A stretch of DNA of 64,000 bases, from assembly GCA_900143615.1 (NCBI GenBank), contig FREU01000001.1, positions 644,767 to 708,766 of the forward strand. The letters are read 5' to 3'. The DNA comes from Rhodobacteraceae bacterium Alg231-30. Lineage in GTDB: Bacteria > Pseudomonadota > Alphaproteobacteria > Rhodobacterales > Rhodobacteraceae. The first letter of the stretch is position 1, and every line of letters starts with the position of its first letter. Below the pieces are notes generated by a model that was not told the DNA's origin, searched no databases, and saw only the letters and a program-made list of their open reading frames with translations. Below are positions 37,458 through 45,052 of this stretch, in pieces. The translations under genes and the position numbers were made by a program.

Positions 37458-39473
37458 ATGACCAATCCGCTTCTATCGCACTGGAATACACCGTTTGAGT
37501 TGGCCCCGTTTGATACCATCACGGACGAGGATTTTGAGCCAGCATTTGAGCAGGCGCTGAGCGCCCATAAGGCCGAGATTGACGCCATTGCGCAATCTGG
37601 CGAGCCCGCGAGTTTTGCCAACACCATCGAAGCGCTGGAGCAGGCGGGCGTAGGGTTGGACAAGGTGCTGTCGGTGTTTTTCACCGTGGCTGGTGCGGAC
37701 AGCAATCCGGCGCGTGAGGCGTTGCAACGGGCATTCTCTCCTAAACTGGCTGCGCATTCGGCTGAGATTTCGTCTAACAAAGACCTGTTTGAGCGCATTG
37801 CGTCGGTCTGGGCCGCGCGGGATAGCTTGGGGTTAAGCCAAGAGCAGCAACGCGTGTTGATGTTAACACATCGCGGGTTTGTGCGTGGCGGCGCGGCGCT
37901 GGAAGGGGCGCAAGATGCGCGGATGAAAGACATCAAAGGCCGCTTGGCCGTGTTGGGCACCGATTTCACGCAGAACCTTTTGGCGGATGAGCGCGCATGG
38001 TTCATGGAGCTGTCTGAGTCTGATCTGGAAGGATTGCCAGCGTTTGCGGTGGACGCCGCGCGGGCTGCTGGCGAGGAAAAAGGCGCGGCAGGTCCGGTTG
38101 TGACTCTGTCGCGCTCAATCATCGTGCCGTTTTTGCAGTTTTCACCCCGTCGCGATTTGCGTGAAACCGCGTTTCGCGCATGGGAGGCACGTGGTGCTAA
38201 CGGCGGCGAAACAGACAACCGCGCAATTGCGGGTGAGATTTTGGCGCTGCGCGAGGAGCGCGCCAAATTGCTGGGCTACGACAGCTTTGCAGCCTTTAAG
38301 CTTGAGACAGAGATGGCCAAAACACCCGAAGCGGTGCGCGATCTGTTGATGGCTGTTTGGGCTCCGGCCAAGGCGCAAGCAGAGAGCGATGCAGAGGTTC
38401 TGGTCCAGATGATGCAGGCCGATGGCGTGAACGGGCCGCTTGAGCCTTGGGATTGGCGCTATTATGCGGAGAAGCGACGCAAGGCTGAGCATGATCTCGA
38501 TGAGGCGGCGTTAAAACCCTACTTGCAGCTGGATCGGATGATCGAGGCCAGCTTTGCTTGTGCCACACGGCTTTTTGGCTTGCAGTTCAAGGCGTTGGAT
38601 GTGCCGCTGTATCATGAGGATTGTCGCGCATGGGAAGTGACGCGGGATGGTCAGCATGTTGCAGTGTTTATTGGCGATTATTTTGCGCGTGGTTCCAAAC
38701 GCTCTGGTGCGTGGTGTTCGGCGATGCGCAGTCAGGCGAAATTTCCAGAGGTGCAAGCGCCTGTTGTGATTAATGTATGCAATTTTGCAAAGGGTGAGCC
38801 CGCTCTGCTAAGCTATGATGATGCGCGCACGCTGTTTCACGAGTTTGGTCATGCGCTGCATCAGATGTTGTCAAATGTGACTTATGAGAGCATTTCGGGC
38901 ACTTCGGTGGCGCGGGATTTTGTAGAGTTGCCGAGCCAGCTGTATGAGCACTGGCTGGAAGTGCCGGAGGTGTTGGCGGAATTTGCCACCCATGCTGAGA
39001 CTGGCGCGGCGATGCCGGCGGCAATGCTGGAAAAGGTTCTGGGCGCGGCTAATTTTGATCAGGGGTTTGCGACCGTGGAATATGTGGCGTCTGCCCTTGT
39101 TGATTTGGCGTTTCACGATGGTGTGGCGCCTGCCGATCCGATGGTGAAACAGGCTGAGGTTTTGGCGCAATTGGGGATGCCGCGGGCGATCCGGATGCGC
39201 CATGCTACGCCGCAGTTTGCGCATGTCTTTGCAGGTGATGGTTATTCGTCGGGCTATTACAGCTATATGTGGTCCGAGGTTATGGATGCGGACGCTTTTG
39301 CCGCCTTTGAAGAGGCCGGAGGCGCGTTTGATCCGGAAATGGCCAAGGCGTTGGAGGAGAATATCCTCTCCTCAGGCGGTTCTGTGGACGCAGAGGAGCT
39401 TTACCTGCGGTTTCGGGGGCGACTGCCTGGTGTTGAGGCGCTTTTGAAGGGGCGCGGTTTGGTTGCAGTCTGA
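37458..39473 (+). CDS. M3 family metallopeptidase (oligopeptidase A/Dcp type)
   Basis: A 671-residue zinc peptidase. The HExxH motif appears as TLFHEFGHALHQML, with the third ligand region ...SGTSVARDFVELPSQLYEHW downstream, as in PrlC, Dcp and thimet oligopeptidase. These enzymes degrade short peptides in the cytosol. No signal peptide is present. AAAGGAG lies ten bases before ATG 37458. It converges on the NYN-type nuclease gene with 7 bp between stops. Confidence 0.9.
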   Translation: MTNPLLSHWNTPFELAPFDTITDEDFEPAFEQALSAHKAEIDAIAQSGEPASFANTIEALEQAGVGLDKVLSVFFTVAGADSNPAREALQRAFSPKLAAHSAEISSNKDLFERIASVWAARDSLGLSQEQQRVLMLTHRGFVRGGAALEGAQDARMKDIKGRLAVLGTDFTQNLLADERAWFMELSESDLEGLPAFAVDAARAAGEEKGAAGPVVTLSRSIIVPFLQFSPRRDLRETAFRAWEARGANGGETDNRAIAGEILALREERAKLLGYDSFAAFKLETEMAKTPEAVRDLLMAVWAPAKAQAESDAEVLVQMMQADGVNGPLEPWDWRYYAEKRRKAEHDLDEAALKPYLQLDRMIEASFACATRLFGLQFKALDVPLYHEDCRAWEVTRDGQHVAVFIGDYFARGSKRSGAWCSAMRSQAKFPEVQAPVVINVCNFAKGEPALLSYDDARTLFHEFGHALHQMLSNVTYESISGTSVARDFVELPSQLYEHWLEVPEVLAEFATHAETGAAMPAAMLEKVLGAANFDQGFATVEYVASALVDLAFHDGVAPADPMVKQAEVLAQLGMPRAIRMRHATPQFAHVFAGDGYSSGYYSYMWSEVMDADAFAAFEEAGGAFDPEMAKALEENILSSGGSVDAEELYLRFRGRLPGVEALLKGRGLVAV

Positions 39474-39480
39474 GGAGAGC

Positions 39481-40080
39481 TTAGGACGCGATCTCTTTGA
39501 ACTCGATCTGGCTGTATAGATAGAGTTTTCCTTTCGTGAACCGCCCGCCAATCAGGTGGGCGGGCTCTTTCACTTCGGGAAAGTCATTGGCCCAGTCACG
39601 GTAGCGGTCATTTGTGACAACCCCCGCAGATAGATCACGTGCAGCCCGCAATATATATTCGTCTGCTATTGTGCCTTTGGGGACGACAAAGCATTGGTCA
39701 CCAGGCAGGCCGAGCAATTGGGCAAACTCAGCGTCATCGACATAGCGACTGAAAAGAACATGGCCTGCCGAGGCGTCAAAGATAACCCCGACCCGAAAGC
39801 CTTTGGTGCGAAGTTCTTCCAGAAGTATGCGCACTGTGTCCAGATTTGGCGTTTTGTCTTGCCAGAACATGACATTGGAGCCATCGACAACGAGCATTTC
39901 GCCCGCTTCCGGCTCTTTCGGCTGTGTTTTGGCGCGGTGCGCGCTTCTGAGCCCAAGCAGTCCGCTGATTGCAGCTGCGGATGCGGCGATGGGCAGTAAG
40001 TCAGCGAATTGTGGCAAGACGACTGCGGCGGCAAAGCCTGCCGCAGAGATCAAAAACACAAGAATCCAAAGAGTACGCAT
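39481..40080 (-). CDS. Membrane-anchored NYN/Zc3h12a-type ribonuclease
   Basis: A 199-residue protein: an N-terminal membrane region (about 4-46, one or two helices), a basic linker, then a domain resembling the RNase domain of eukaryotic Zc3h12a/Regnase (PF11977). Matching elements are VVDGSNVMFW (D66, N69), GVIFDASA (D102), GTIADEYILRAA (D140) and GVVTNDRYRDW (D158, D162), the ordered acidic metal-binding set of NYN/PIN nucleases. It should cleave RNA near the membrane, by inference. It lies 18 bp after the phosphomannomutase gene and seems to be the last gene of the capsule/Kdo operon. Confidence 0.75.
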   Translation of the reverse strand: MRTLWILVFLISAAGFAAAVVLPQFADLLPIAASAAAISGLLGLRSAHRAKTQPKEPEAGEMLVVDGSNVMFWQDKTPNLDTVRILLEELRTKGFRVGVIFDASAGHVLFSRYVDDAEFAQLLGLPGDQCFVVPKGTIADEYILRAARDLSAGVVTNDRYRDWANDFPEVKEPAHLIGGRFTKGKLYLYSQIEFKEIAS

Positions 40081-40098
40081 AGGCGAGTTCTGTTTGTC

Positions 40099-41595
40099 CT
40101 AGATCGTTTGGTCGTAATCCCCGACGCCCGGCTCGGTGCGAATAACTTCGTTGAGCGCATCAAAGATAGCGCGCATCTCTTCTTCGCTTTGTGCGCTCTC
40201 ACAGACCACCACGAGGTTAGGCGTATTGGAGGAGGCGCGCACAAGACCCCACGAGCCGTTGTCCAGAATGACGCGGGCGCCATTCACGGTGACGACCTCT
40301 TTGATCGCGCGTCCGGCAAAGCTCTCGCCGGCGTCAAATTTAGCAACCAGTTTGGCCACGAGACGCTCAAGAATATCGTATTTCTCGGTGTCTGCGGCAT
40401 AGGGTGACATGGTGGGGGTCGACCATGTTTTGGGCAGCGCTTTGCGCAGGTCAGACATGGATTTGTCCGCGTTGCGGTCCAGCATTTTGCAGACTTCTAC
40501 CGCGACGCGCATGCCGCAGTCATAGCCGCGACCAATCGGCTCGGCGAGGAAGTAGTGGCCGGACTTCTCAAAGCCTGCCAGTGCGCCAATTTCCTTGACG
40601 CGGCGCTTCATGTGACTGTGGCCGGTTTTCCAGTAGTCCGCCGTCACGCCATTGGCCTGCAACTCGGGGTCGGCGGCGAACAATCCGGTGGATTTCACAT
40701 CGGCGACAAAAGTCGCATTGGGGTAAATTTTGGACAAGTCGCGCGCCATGATGACGCCAACCTTATCGGCGAAAATCTCTTCGCCTTCGTCGTCCACAAC
40801 ACCACAGCGATCGCCGTCGCCATCAAACCCGAGCGCCAGATCGGCACCGGAGGCGCGCACTGAATCCGCCATGTCATGCAGCATCAGCATGTCTTCGGGG
40901 TTGGGGTTGTAGTTGGGGAAGGTGTAGTCAAGCTCGGTGTGGCTGGGCACAACTTCGACGCCGATGCGCTCGAAGATTTCCGGAGCAAAGGCGGCGGCTG
41001 TGCCGTTGCCGGTTGCACAGACAACCTTGAGCGGGCGTGACATTTTGAAGTCACCCACAAGGTCGTCGATGTAGGCCTCTTTAACGCCACTGACAAATTC
41101 GTATTTGCCGCCCTCGGTCTCGTCAAAATCACCGTTGAGAACGATGTCGCGTAGCTCGGCCATCTCATCGGGGCCATGCGTCAGAGGTTTCTCAAAGCCC
41201 ATCTTCACACCGGTCCAGCCATTTGGATTATGGCTGGCAGTGATCATGGCCACAGCAGGCGTGTTGAGGTGGAATTGCGAGAAATAGGCCATCGGCGAGA
41301 CCGCCGGACCGATATCCTTGACGTGAATGCCAGCCCGCATCAGTCCCAAAATCACAGCGTGTTTGATTGCCAGAGAATAGTCTCGATAGTCATTGGCAAC
41401 CGAAATCACCGGCTCGATACCCCGACGCTGCATTTGTGTGCCAAGACCAAAGCCCAGAGCGGTCATGCCAACGAGGTTGATCTCATCGGGATATTTCCAA
41501 CGTGCGTCATATTCACGAAAGCCGGTTGGCTTGATCATCGGGTCGCGCAGAAATTCCCAAGTATTCGGGCGCACGTCGGGCATTGGTTTAGTCAT
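40099..41595 (-). CDS. Phosphomannomutase/phosphoglucomutase
   Basis: A 498-residue alpha-D-phosphohexomutase with the four family motifs: TASHNPNGWTG (phosphoserine loop), GFDGDGDRCG (metal loop), FEKSGHYFL (sugar loop, with GxEESG-like function) and RASSNTPNL (phosphate-binding). It interconverts hexose 1- and 6-phosphates, supplying precursors for polysaccharide and lipopolysaccharide. The relative of this branch (AlgC-type PMM/PGM) acts on both mannose and glucose phosphates. It lies in the kpsT-kpsE-kdsA unit, 18 bp after kdsA. Confidence 0.9.
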   Translation of the reverse strand: MTKPMPDVRPNTWEFLRDPMIKPTGFREYDARWKYPDEINLVGMTALGFGLGTQMQRRGIEPVISVANDYRDYSLAIKHAVILGLMRAGIHVKDIGPAVSPMAYFSQFHLNTPAVAMITASHNPNGWTGVKMGFEKPLTHGPDEMAELRDIVLNGDFDETEGGKYEFVSGVKEAYIDDLVGDFKMSRPLKVVCATGNGTAAAFAPEIFERIGVEVVPSHTELDYTFPNYNPNPEDMLMLHDMADSVRASGADLALGFDGDGDRCGVVDDEGEEIFADKVGVIMARDLSKIYPNATFVADVKSTGLFAADPELQANGVTADYWKTGHSHMKRRVKEIGALAGFEKSGHYFLAEPIGRGYDCGMRVAVEVCKMLDRNADKSMSDLRKALPKTWSTPTMSPYAADTEKYDILERLVAKLVAKFDAGESFAGRAIKEVVTVNGARVILDNGSWGLVRASSNTPNLVVVCESAQSEEEMRAIFDALNEVIRTEPGVGDYDQTI

Positions 41596-41613
41596 GAAAA
41601 ATCTCTTAAATCA

Positions 41614-42447
41614 TCAAATATTAATAGGATCGGCTTTCGCCAGTTTGTCGAAACTCATCAAGGAGTCAACCAGCGCGGGCATACGTTGCAAATGTATCAT
41701 GTTTGGCCCGTCGGATGGGGCATTGTCCGGGTCTTCATGAGTCTCAATGAAGACGGCTGCCACGCCGATGGCCACCGCTGCGCGCGCCATAACAGGGGCA
41801 AACTCGCGCTGACCTCCAGAGCTGCCGCCTTGACCTCCGGGTTGTTGCACCGAATGTGTGGCATCCATCACGACAGGGTAGCCGGTTTTGGCCATCCGTG
41901 GCAGAGCGCGCATATCAGCTACCAAGGTGTTGTAGCCAAAAGATGTGCCGCGCTCGGTCAACATGATCTTGTCGTTGCCGGTGCTGGCGATTTTGGCGAC
42001 AACATTGTCCATATCCCAAGGCGCTAAAAACTGGCCTTTTTTGACGTTCACAACAGCACCAGTTTGGCCCGCCGCCAGCAACATATCAGTTTGGCGGCAC
42101 AGAAAGGCAGGGATTTGAAGGATGTCGACGGCGTCCGCCGCAGGTGCGCATTGCGCCTCAGTGTGCACATCCGTCAGGGTTGGGATGTCCATTGTGGTGC
42201 GAATGTCGCTGAGCACCTTGAGGCCAGCATCCATGCCAAGGCCACGTACACCGGACAAAGATGTTCGGTTGGCTTTGTCATAGCTGGCTTTGAACACATA
42301 TTGGGCGCCCGCTGCCTCGCAGGCTTCTTTCATTGTGCCAGCAATCATCTGTGCGTGGTCTGCACTCTCGAGCTGGCAAGGACCGGCGATGATGGTCAGG
42401 GGGCAGTTATTGCCAATGGTGAGGCCAGCGACATCAATGGTTTTCAT
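41614..42447 (-). CDS. kdsA: 3-deoxy-8-phosphooctulonate (Kdo-8-P) synthase
   Basis: A 277-residue DAHP/Kdo-8-P synthase-fold enzyme. LTIIAGPCQLESADHAQMIA, VFKASYDKANRTSLSGVRGL, LTDVHTEAQ and TERGTSFGYNTLVADMRALP are KdsA signatures. It condenses arabinose-5-phosphate with phosphoenolpyruvate to begin Kdo synthesis for lipid A inner core or Kdo-linked capsule. The ATG starts right after the TAG of the kpsE-like gene, so translation is coupled with the export genes. Confidence 0.95.
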   Translation of the reverse strand: MKTIDVAGLTIGNNCPLTIIAGPCQLESADHAQMIAGTMKEACEAAGAQYVFKASYDKANRTSLSGVRGLGMDAGLKVLSDIRTTMDIPTLTDVHTEAQCAPAADAVDILQIPAFLCRQTDMLLAAGQTGAVVNVKKGQFLAPWDMDNVVAKIASTGNDKIMLTERGTSFGYNTLVADMRALPRMAKTGYPVVMDATHSVQQPGGQGGSSGGQREFAPVMARAAVAIGVAAVFIETHEDPDNAPSDGPNMIHLQRMPALVDSLMSFDKLAKADPINI

Positions 42448-44142
42448 CTAGGAAGATACCTGTTCTCTGAGAATGGACGCGGTAAGCGAGATCATCAGAT
42501 AGATGCCTGAAAAGATCAGAAAGGCCAAGATCGTGTTTTCAAAGCTGCGCGGATATGAGGCGTCCTCAGAAGCGACCGGCTCAACACTTGTGGTTAGGTA
42601 ACGCACCTGACGGCTGGCTTCTAATTCGGTTTGTTTCAGGGTTTGGAGCGTAGATTGCATCAACAAATCGGCGGTTGCCAAATCGGCCTGTGCCATCTGG
42701 ATCTGAGAAGTCTTCTGCGCCAGAGAATCCTCTCCTTCGGTGGCGGCGTTCATGTTGGTCTCAAGGCGCAATAGCAGCCCCTGAAGGCGGCGAATGTCAC
42801 CTTTTACACCCTCAACACGGGCTTGGTTCGGACGCGTGTTGTCTTCATATGCGGCCAACTGCAGCTCTTTTTCCTGAAGTTGGATTTGCACGTTGGAAAT
42901 CTGCTGACGCAAAGAAGCGATGAGACCTTCGGGGTCAAGAACGCTGCTTTCTTGAAGCTCCACAAGGGTGGCTTGGGCTTCGCGTCGCTCGGCTTTGGCT
43001 TTTTCCAGACTTGCACGGGCGTCGCGAAGTTGGTCTTCGCGTTTGCGCCGAGACAATTCGTCAACCCGCGTTTCAGCGTAGCCGATTAAGGCACGGGAGA
43101 AACTTGTCGCGATGAGAGGGTCCGCTGCAATGACTTCCATGCGAATTGACCCTTCGGTCGGATCATATCCGATTTTGACGTTTTTCTTATAAAGCTTGAA
43201 CGCCTCTTCGTTGGAAGGGGTTGCGCTAAGTCGTTGAACTGGATCGATTGCTTGATCCGAGAAATGCGATTTGAAACCAACATCATTGTCGAGACGGATC
43301 ATGGCGTCTTTGGACGTCAGATAGTCCTGAACCGCAATAGCATCCTGATTGGCATTTAGCTGGGACGGTAGCAGAGCCCCGAGGCCTGTGCCGCCGCTGC
43401 CGTCTGCTTGTTGTACAAAGAAGGCAGACTTGGTTGCGTACATGGGTGTGGCGACAGAGTAGAAATACCATGCTGCAAACAGAGTTGGAAGGAACACAAA
43501 CACCGAAAGGCGGGCCAGCAAGAGCGCGGTGCGGCGGCGACGGCGACGGGCGATGTCACGCTGAATCTCGCCGATTTCCATGGCCCGCATCTCGGACGGA
43601 GAGCGGGTCTCTGTTGATGGCAGATTTGTCTTGTCCACTTTCATCGTCTGTGGAAGCTGAATGCGGCCAGAAGAGGCTTTGGCCGGTACGTTGTCCGCCC
43701 CCGAGCTGCCCTCGTTGCGCGGGACAAGATCCAACATATTGGTGCGTTGGAAGGGATCCACACCGGAGGCGCGCAGCAGGCGCACCGCATCATAATCCGA
43801 TGTTGCGGCCAAACCGTTCTTTTGAGCCATTCGGCGCGCAAGTCGTAATTGACGGCCGGTCAGGCCTTCACGTTTGATCTCATCTATTTCCTGCTCGGCC
43901 GGCTTAACCTGACCGGGCGCAGGTGGTTTGCCAGTTGGTTTGCCTGTAGCGGTCTCTTGTGCTGGCGGTGTTGGTGCGGGCTGTGGTCGTTTCGTTGTTC
44001 GCGGCAAATCGGCCGCGGCTGGCGCAGGGCTGGCCGTGCCTGCGGTGTTTGCGGCAGTGTTCGCAGCTGTGGGCGCTGCGCTTTGCTCAGGCGCAGGTGT
44101 GCGGCGAATGCGAAATTTCTTAGCCTTGGGTTTGGTAGTCAT
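42448..44142 (-). CDS. KpsE/CtrB-type capsule export inner-membrane protein with long N-terminal extension
   Basis: A 564-residue polysaccharide co-polymerase. The conserved part begins near residue 200 with a transmembrane helix (LLLARLSVFVFLPTLFAAWY, about 208-228), a periplasmic domain with coiled coil (330-470) and a C-terminal transmembrane helix (AFLIFSGIYLMISLTASI). The first 200 residues are extra: basic start (MTTKPKAKKFRIRRTPAPEQ), an Ala/Pro-rich stretch, then a Thr/Arg helix. KpsE proteins are near 380 residues, so this tail is unusual. With the adjacent ATPase it would export capsule or other polysaccharide. No KpsM permease is in the window. Confidence 0.82.
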   Translation of the reverse strand: MTTKPKAKKFRIRRTPAPEQSAAPTAANTAANTAGTASPAPAAADLPRTTKRPQPAPTPPAQETATGKPTGKPPAPGQVKPAEQEIDEIKREGLTGRQLRLARRMAQKNGLAATSDYDAVRLLRASGVDPFQRTNMLDLVPRNEGSSGADNVPAKASSGRIQLPQTMKVDKTNLPSTETRSPSEMRAMEIGEIQRDIARRRRRRTALLLARLSVFVFLPTLFAAWYFYSVATPMYATKSAFFVQQADGSGGTGLGALLPSQLNANQDAIAVQDYLTSKDAMIRLDNDVGFKSHFSDQAIDPVQRLSATPSNEEAFKLYKKNVKIGYDPTEGSIRMEVIAADPLIATSFSRALIGYAETRVDELSRRKREDQLRDARASLEKAKAERREAQATLVELQESSVLDPEGLIASLRQQISNVQIQLQEKELQLAAYEDNTRPNQARVEGVKGDIRRLQGLLLRLETNMNAATEGEDSLAQKTSQIQMAQADLATADLLMQSTLQTLKQTELEASRQVRYLTTSVEPVASEDASYPRSFENTILAFLIFSGIYLMISLTASILREQVSS

Positions 44143-44779
44143 AAAGCTGCTTTGCCTCTTCCAAGGTGTCAAACATATAGAGTTTCCCGTTTAGCAGCAC
44201 AGCTGCAGAACGGGCAAATTTTTCAAGCACTTCGGGCTTGTGTGACACAATTACGATTGTTGTTGTGCGTAGGCGTTCGCGTAGGACTTCGCCTGCTTTT
44301 TTGTTGAACTCGACATCGGTTGACGAGGGCATGCCCTCGTCGATCAGATACATGTCAAAATCCAGTGCCAGCATGAGCGCAAAGGTGAAGCGTGCGCGCA
44401 TGCCGGAGGAATAGGTGCCAAGGGGCTGCTCAAAGTATTCGCCAAGATTGCAGAGCCAGCGGCAGAAGGCCTCGACGTAGTCAGGGTCAAGCCCGTATAG
44501 GCGGGCGATGTAGCGGCTGTTCTCAACGGCGGAGTGTTTGCCAACAACGCCCCCCATGAAACCAAGTGGGAAAGAAATCCGACAATCGCGTCGGATGATG
44601 CCCTCGTCAGGTTTCTCTAGGCCGGCCATCATATTGATCAGGGTGGTCTTGCCTGTGCCATTGGGGGCGAGAATTCCTACGGAATTGCCCAATTCCACGC
44701 GAAACGACACGCGGTCAAGGATCACCTTGCGCTGTGTGCCTGTCCAAAAGGACTTACTCACGTTATCGAATTCGAGCAT
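44120..44779 (-). CDS. kpsT: Capsule polysaccharide export ATPase KpsT-like
   Basis: A 219-residue ABC ATPase: Walker A APNGTGKT (38-45), a signature TYSSGMRARFTFALMLALDF, Walker B MYLIDE, and SHKPE (H-loop). Length and pattern fit KpsT/CtrD of group 2-type capsule exporters. It drives polysaccharide transport together with a KpsM permease not present here. ATG 44779 is preceded by GGGAG; the long in-frame extension upstream is not protein-like. Its 3' end overlaps the KpsE-like gene by 23 bp. Confidence 0.9.
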   Translation of the reverse strand: MLEFDNVSKSFWTGTQRKVILDRVSFRVELGNSVGILAPNGTGKTTLINMMAGLEKPDEGIIRRDCRISFPLGFMGGVVGKHSAVENSRYIARLYGLDPDYVEAFCRWLCNLGEYFEQPLGTYSSGMRARFTFALMLALDFDMYLIDEGMPSSTDVEFNKKAGEVLRERLRTTTIVIVSHKPEVLEKFARSAAVLLNGKLYMFDTLEEAKQLYDYQTQG

Positions 44780-45000
44780 CGACTGCTCCCAGCCTGTATT
44801 TCTCAACCTTATAACATGTTGATTAACGCTCTGTCGGCGTTTTGTCACAATATGTCGGATTACCCCCGTGGATAGCAACGGTCTGGGGCAACAATAGGGC
44901 GGAAATGTCCTCTTATTTGGTGAAAAAACCCAGAAACGCGCATCACGTCGGGTCAATCAAAAGATATTTGGGACACGCGAAACATGGATGAACGCGATAA
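44780..45000 (-). promoter_or_regulatory. Upstream region of the capsule/Kdo operon
   Basis: A 221-bp region without a gene. On the minus strand a TTGTGA and GTTAAT pair (17-bp spacing, about 44850-44822) could be the promoter of kpsT; a TATAAG is nearby. Nothing else stands out besides the terminator of the converging-side permease operon. Confidence 0.3.
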
Positions 45001-45027
45001 AACCGAGGCGTTGATCGCGCCTCGGTT
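45001..45027 (-). terminator. Terminator of the ArsR-permease operon
   Basis: Perfect 10-bp arms AACCGAGGCG / CGCCTCGGTT with a 7-base loop, followed on the minus strand by TTTTATC, 26 bases past the permease stop. Confidence 0.85.
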
Positions 45028-45052
45028 GCGTGTTTGTGCGTGGAGTGTGGGG

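Follow-up and report, generated by a model that had tools for sequence, protein, structure and literature searches.

A Zc3h12a-type NYN protein with a predicted membrane anchor, encoded at the end of an envelope-polysaccharide gene unit in Rhodobacteraceae bacterium Alg231-30

The DNA analyzed here, which we call the window, is a stretch of 64,000 nucleotides from contig FREU01000001.1 of Rhodobacteraceae bacterium Alg231-30 (positions 644,767 to 708,766). The subject of this study is a 199-amino-acid (aa) protein with an NYN domain, encoded by the final gene of a kpsT-kpsE-kdsA-pmm-NYN unit whose members all lie on the minus strand (Table 1). Such a five-gene, one-strand unit had been described in the original prediction, made from the sequence alone, and its presence at 39481-44779 was confirmed by searching the encoded proteins with hidden Markov models (HMMs). 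The gaps of 0 to 18 bp that had been claimed are found between kpsE and kdsA (0 bp), kdsA and pmm (18 bp), and pmm and NYN (18 bp), but not between kpsT and kpsE, which overlap by about 23 bp. Beyond the NYN gene, the end of the M3-family peptidase gene is 7 bp away.

Table 1. Features of the NYN locus in the window
Feature	Position in window	Strand	Evidence
Zc3h12a-type NYN protein, predicted membrane-anchored, 199 aa	39481-40080	-	PF11977, 48 bits; AlphaFold2 predicted local distance difference test (pLDDT), 91.1; Regnase-family fold matches
Predicted membrane anchor of two hydrophobic helices, with the beginning of the linker, N-terminal residues 2-52	39925-40077	-	Hydropathy and model
NYN/PIN-like nuclease domain, residues 62-184, with D66, N69, D140, D158, D162, and the family-specific D102	39529-39897	-	Pfam stretch; invariant columns in 34 rows; alignment to ZC3H12C/KHNYN chains
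Phosphomannomutase/phosphoglucomutase-type protein (pmm)	40099-41595	-	PGM_PMM domains I-IV
kdsA, Kdo-8-phosphate synthase	41614-42447	-	TIGR01362 equivalog, 390 bits versus 314-bit cut-off
KpsE/CtrB-like polysaccharide export protein	42448-44142 (first ATG; open frame from TTG 44172)	-	TIGR01010, E = 1.3e-50
KpsT/VexC-type ATP-binding cassette (ABC) ATPase	44120-44779	-	PF00005; VexC-type equivalog, E = 3e-28
M3-family peptidase, convergent, bounding the operon slot, outside the unit	37458-39473	+	PF01432

PF11977 (RNase_Zc3h12a) recognizes the protein with a score of 48 bits (cut-off, 23; E value, 1.4e-12) and has no other match in the genome. A Pfam scan of the protein returned PF11977 only, with no zinc-finger family and no PPR family. 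In the structure alignment, built from 67 of the 81 available rows with 14 loci left out by hand, PF11977 is the sole Pfam family matched at E ≤ 0.001, and every row matches it, that of the window included. When the AlphaFold2 model (mean pLDDT of 91.1) was compared with the PDB by Foldseek, ranks 1 to 19 were occupied by chains of ZC3H12C, ZC3H12B, KHNYN, and MCPIP1/Regnase, with E values of 7.8e-7 to 2.4e-5 and TM-scores of 0.54 to 0.65 by target length, and PRORP chains came next. A second structural aligner gave a Z score of 14.4 for Regnase-1, with a root mean square deviation of 2.5 over 128 residues, and Z scores of 12.4 for PRORP2 and 8.6 for Rae1/YacP. The domain call that had been made by eye is thus upheld by the profile search, and the PIN/NYN fold was found when it was looked for in a structure model. 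A false NYN call is rejected in view of the PF11977 match, the results of both structural comparisons, and the agreement of all 67 rows. As judged from profiles and a model, the protein has a Zc3h12a-type NYN domain with a predicted Regnase-family fold.

The putative active site was examined next to the acidic set D66, N69, D102, D140, and D158 named in the original prediction, the numbering of which is correct. All five residues, together with D162, are invariant in a 34-row alignment; in the 67-row alignment the five are again invariant, as had been anticipated for relatives, and D162 is present at ≥90%. In profile alignments to ZC3H12C and KHNYN chains, Regnase-family motifs line up with the DGSN motif (D66 and N69), D140, D158, and D162, the last of these with the aspartate of YRD; N144 and D248 of Regnase-1 are presumably among the counterparts. 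The proposed likeness to the Regnase acidic set therefore holds for D66, N69, D140, and D158 but not for D102, which belongs to an FDA[NS] motif conserved in the bacterial family and aligns with no Regnase acid, and D162 had been omitted. The acidic site of Regnase-1 is given as D141, D225, D226, and D244 in one report (PMC12982082). Three of these four metal-Asp positions are kept in HMM alignments to the ZC3H12C and KHNYN chains (D66, D140, and D158), and the D225 position, where the Regnase DD pair begins, is taken by A139, with Ala in all 34 rows. This Ala could mean that the NYN domain is catalytically weak or dead and serves as an RNA-binding membrane adaptor. However, the remaining site residues are invariant in the 34 rows, and a review (PMC5039416) describes Ala as frequent at the position of this first Asp among NYN proteins other than PRORP. 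We consider a dead domain very improbable.

Among known systems, the best structural matches are the Regnase/ZC3H12 family (Regnase-1/MCPIP1, ZC3H12B, and ZC3H12C) and KHNYN, with Z scores of 13 to 14. The DGSN, central Asp, [TS]ND, and [FY]RD motifs of these proteins align with the window protein. In contrast to them, the window protein, at about 20% identity, has a predicted membrane anchor and no zinc-finger family, and its family has Ala at the D225 position and an extra invariant Asp (D102, of FDA[NS]). In eukaryotic Regnase (ZC3H12A-D), a CCCH zinc finger follows the NYN domain, and the 199-aa protein, holding PF11977 only, lacks this mark of Regnase proper. Rae1/YacP of Bacillus subtilis is also a bacterial NYN endoribonuclease, but its structural match is weaker, and it is not known to be membrane-anchored and belongs to another Pfam family. 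The metallonuclease domain of PRORP has the NYN fold in common with the window protein, which differs in having no PPR family and in reading AD and DW where the second signature of PRORP has DD and DH (PMC5039416). A CRISPR-associated NYN protein of Bacteroides fragilis has Mn2+-dependent RNase activity that is lost on mutation of D13, and VPA0982 and MARF1 are named as similar folds in the same report (PMC11346440). Both it and the window protein are bacterial NYN proteins, although the context there is CRISPR; by this likeness, we infer that the window protein may have metal-dependent RNase activity. PF11977 takes its name from Zc3h12a, and membership in it makes the domain one of a known kind. 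The membrane-anchored architecture in Rhodobacteraceae is without description in the literature found, a search in which subscription papers were mostly outside coverage having returned no published work on this NYN family. A loose parallel of an NYN protein near envelope genes comes from a survey of archaeal pseudomurein genes, in which one of the listed clusters has a Zc3h12a-like NYN protein next to a nucleotide cyclase (PMC11915815).

The hydropathy of the window protein peaks at residues 6-22 and 28-44, and the model has helices at residues 2-21 and 23-52. Transmembrane segments were predicted across relatives with a simple hydropathy threshold, start codons being picked by rule (TTG for the copy behind pmm in the congener G023). 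N-terminal hydrophobic segments were found in 90 of 92 rows (one in 25, two in 62, and three in 3), in line with the membrane anchor originally proposed, and the two rows without them (L070 and L102) both have doubtful starts. The linker after the last hydrophobic segment is net positive in 83 of the 90 rows, which by the positive-inside rule would place the nuclease in the cytosol. Ratios of nonsynonymous to synonymous substitution rates (dN/dS) were 0.10 to 0.40 across the 30 close pairs listed, so the NYN protein is under purifying selection despite its fast divergence.

The NYN gene is present in 107 of 394 sampled genomes of the Rhodobacteraceae, or about a quarter (105 with a single-protein query); these genomes are an even draw from a larger group. 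In a sample of the class, 4 of 289 genomes have a match, all 4 of them in this same family, and within the genus the gene occurs in 9 of 25 genomes, that of the window included. The NYN family is thus patchy across the Rhodobacteraceae. The PF11977 domain is distributed more widely, being matched also in a single control genome out of 14, that of an archaeon. Only 3 of 72,556 plasmid records carry a relative (Rhodobacter, Pseudorhodobacter, and Salipiger), and the two whose features were inspected are annotated only as hypothetical protein. One named relative, Maritalea mobilis (L049), has a name belonging to another family but falls among Roseicyclus in the tree. The Rhodobacteraceae also contain a more diverged NYN set, with about 33 to 41% identity and longer open frames, in places two close together; such matches lie on contig C58 of G215 near 25.4-26.7 kb and on the Salipiger plasmid NZ_CP014597.1 (L154).

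The surroundings of the gene were compared in the best 80 of the 453 named relatives found, with neighbors called from raw open frames. Neither kdsA, pmm, nor kpsE was found near NYN in any of the 80, within flanks of 7.5 kb or more on each side for 56 loci and 3 kb or more for 66; weak KpsT-like matches only, of the generic ABC ATPase kind, occur in 4 loci. Frames overlapping the NYN gene aside, no neighbor family is found in more than 11 of the 80 loci, on which ground a conserved partner gene is rejected, and a same-strand frame lies within 40 bp upstream of NYN in 9 of 78 loci. In the family sample, linkage to pmm was scored with matches at a strict limit of 1e-120 (150 of 151 genomes used) and thus covers 43 of the 107 NYN genomes, the other 64 being outside it. 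NYN and a close pmm are adjacent in 4 of these 43 genomes and apart in 39. The 39 comprise 11 genomes with the two genes on a single contig and 28 with them on separate contigs, where adjacency could be masked by a contig end. An obligatory capsule linkage is rejected on these two surveys.

Where pmm is followed by NYN on the same strand, the arrangement is seen in seven genomes of four genera: those of the window, G001, G006, and G023 within the genus and G033, G100, and G118 in three other genera, those of G100 and G118 being represented by one genome each. From pmm stop to NYN start is 5 to 33 nt in six of the seven and about 800 bp in G001. In the latter (L134, 7865-8661), an open frame of about 250 codons, family unknown, stands between the two genes. 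kdsA is within the unit in five of the seven, G033 and G100 having no kdsA match in the 14 kb around. The kdsA-pmm-NYN order that the original prediction proposed to survey is therefore shared with four other genomes, three congeners (one with an extra frame) and one of another genus, and pmm-NYN alone with two further genera, but it does not extend to the 39 of 43 genomes or to any of the 80 relatives. An M3 peptidase gene lies beyond NYN in all of the seven but G001 (five of the six others). In the congeners G013 and G014, pmm adjoins the M3 gene with no NYN between them, that is, the slot is empty; G013 has NYN matches elsewhere. For the 21 congeners without NYN in the slot, the pmm locus was examined in 6, with the M3 gene directly after pmm in G013 and G014 and outside the stretch in 4. 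The empty slot of G014 (L147, 8824-9015, about 190 bp) contains several short inverted repeats, as seen by eye. The pmm-NYN link is thus real in a minority of genomes and absent in most of those checked.

These arrangements bear on whether the protein is a dedicated envelope regulator, a tethered nuclease that would cleave its own kpsT-kpsE-kdsA-pmm mRNA or other envelope mRNAs at the membrane and so tune Kdo/polysaccharide supply. The recurrence of pmm then NYN in four genera, the tight spacing in six of the seven genomes, the chance that the window copy is a different NYN lineage in the same slot, and the lack of any kdsA match in the genome outside the unit are all consistent with such a role. 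It is nevertheless unlikely, given that the two genes are apart in 39 of 43 genomes, that none of the 80 relatives has NYN near kdsA, pmm, or kpsE, that kdsA is missing from two of the seven units, and that just 4 of the 25 genomes searched within the genus have NYN in the slot although a close KpsE match is present in all 25, that of the window included. The same two surveys, of 43 genomes and 80 relatives, lend little support to the earlier suggestion of RNA cleavage at the export site or feedback on capsule mRNA.

The history of the slot behind pmm was traced with a careful tree of 45 hand-chosen rows of 92, G013 having been removed because its branch was long. Over the nuclease domain, the copies in the six other slot genomes share 56 to 79% identity, and the tree unites them in a single clade (100/99 support). 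The window copy is 43 to 51% identical to them and groups instead with L042, L046, and L068 (99/92 support), none of which has pmm in its flanking stretch, the upstream flank of L068 being only about 1.8 kb; the PMM of the window is 81 to 92% identical to those of the slot genomes. That the window copy stands apart in the tree and is diverged while its PMM is conserved suggests that it arose by replacement or by independent entry into the slot. Fast divergence in place is possible as well, because one clade of all seven slot copies was not rejected by the approximately unbiased (AU) test (p-AU of 0.31). Two NYN lineages, one here and one in the six others, might have filled the slot as co-expression with envelope-polysaccharide genes was selected, the nuclease cutting membrane-localized envelope mRNAs as a bacterial membrane-bound counterpart of Regnase-type control; we regard this elaboration as quite unlikely.

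The divergence of the window copy relative to its PMM, the presence of the gene in 107 of 394 genomes, and the lack of a fixed neighbor family would also fit a conflict gene, whose product, an RNase tethered at the membrane, would defend against phage or be a toxin-like abortive effector, and such a function would explain the patchiness, fast divergence, and shifting location. However, PADLOC-DB 2023 gave 0 families at E ≤ 1, PHROGs gave matches only at E values of 0.31 or worse, and no relative was found in the viral contigs or the phage records searched. There is also no recurrent partner gene, although defence neighborhoods were not scanned systematically. We therefore hold a conflict function to be of low probability. 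A phage origin of the gene is rejected in view of the weak PHROGs matches and the lack of relatives in the viral contigs and phage records searched.

As for the other genes of the unit, the names KpsE and KpsT denote resemblances below the NCBIfam cut-offs, the scores being 172.5 bits against 437.5 for TIGR01010 and 98.8 bits against 313 for the VexC type. The KpsE-like protein (42448-44172) has an Ala/Pro/Thr-rich N-terminal extension of about 200 residues, and its family match begins at residue 221. A search of the genome for a second kdsA match found none. No ABC-2 permease gene adjoins kpsT/kpsE; the three PF01061 matches of the genome are all elsewhere, one of them near a second KpsE-like match, and the gene preceding kpsT (44780-45052) encodes an ArsP-type permease, not kpsM. 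A search for an internal NYN promoter returned 3 promoter-like sites against a shuffle mean of 2.7. Terminator-like sites numbered 11 against a shuffle mean of 7.2, with none listed on the minus strand just past the NYN gene.

Computation shows an NYN fold (in a predicted model), conservation of the acidic residues, a hydrophobic N-terminal segment predicted from hydropathy to be an anchor, purifying selection, and the distribution of the family. The interpretation that we favor, at a probability of about 0.62, is that the protein is an accessory membrane-tethered, metal-dependent endoribonuclease of the Rhodobacteraceae, patchy in occurrence and using a local operon promoter. The predicted anchor would keep the catalytic domain at the inner membrane, on its cytosolic side; there a divalent metal may be bound through D66, D140, and D158, with N69 and D162, and RNA would be cut endonucleolytically. 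The role would be accessory RNA turnover at the membrane. The kpsT-kpsE-kdsA-pmm operon would provide a promoter rather than a target, because relatives are located elsewhere without a fixed neighbor. The NYN protein is therefore best seen as a predicted accessory RNase carried at various chromosomal places, and here last in an envelope-polysaccharide unit. Three observations weigh against this interpretation. Searching PDB sequences with the single sequence yielded no significant hit (lowest E value, 0.12), so that the link to Regnase needs profiles or a model; a profile search was significant, with ZC3H12C at an E value of 7.8e-5. At the position of D225, which is among the four metal-binding Asp residues of Regnase-1, the protein has A139. 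Finally, the tight pmm-NYN spacing in six of seven genomes is more than a purely opportunistic position requires.

Most of what is known of Regnase-type NYN nucleases concerns mRNA decay in eukaryotes. A family with the same fold, predicted to be at the membrane and present in about a quarter of the sampled Rhodobacteraceae, would be an uncharacterized RNase of a large bacterial group. With it, one can test whether an NYN enzyme is able to carry out mRNA decay at the inner membrane of bacteria.

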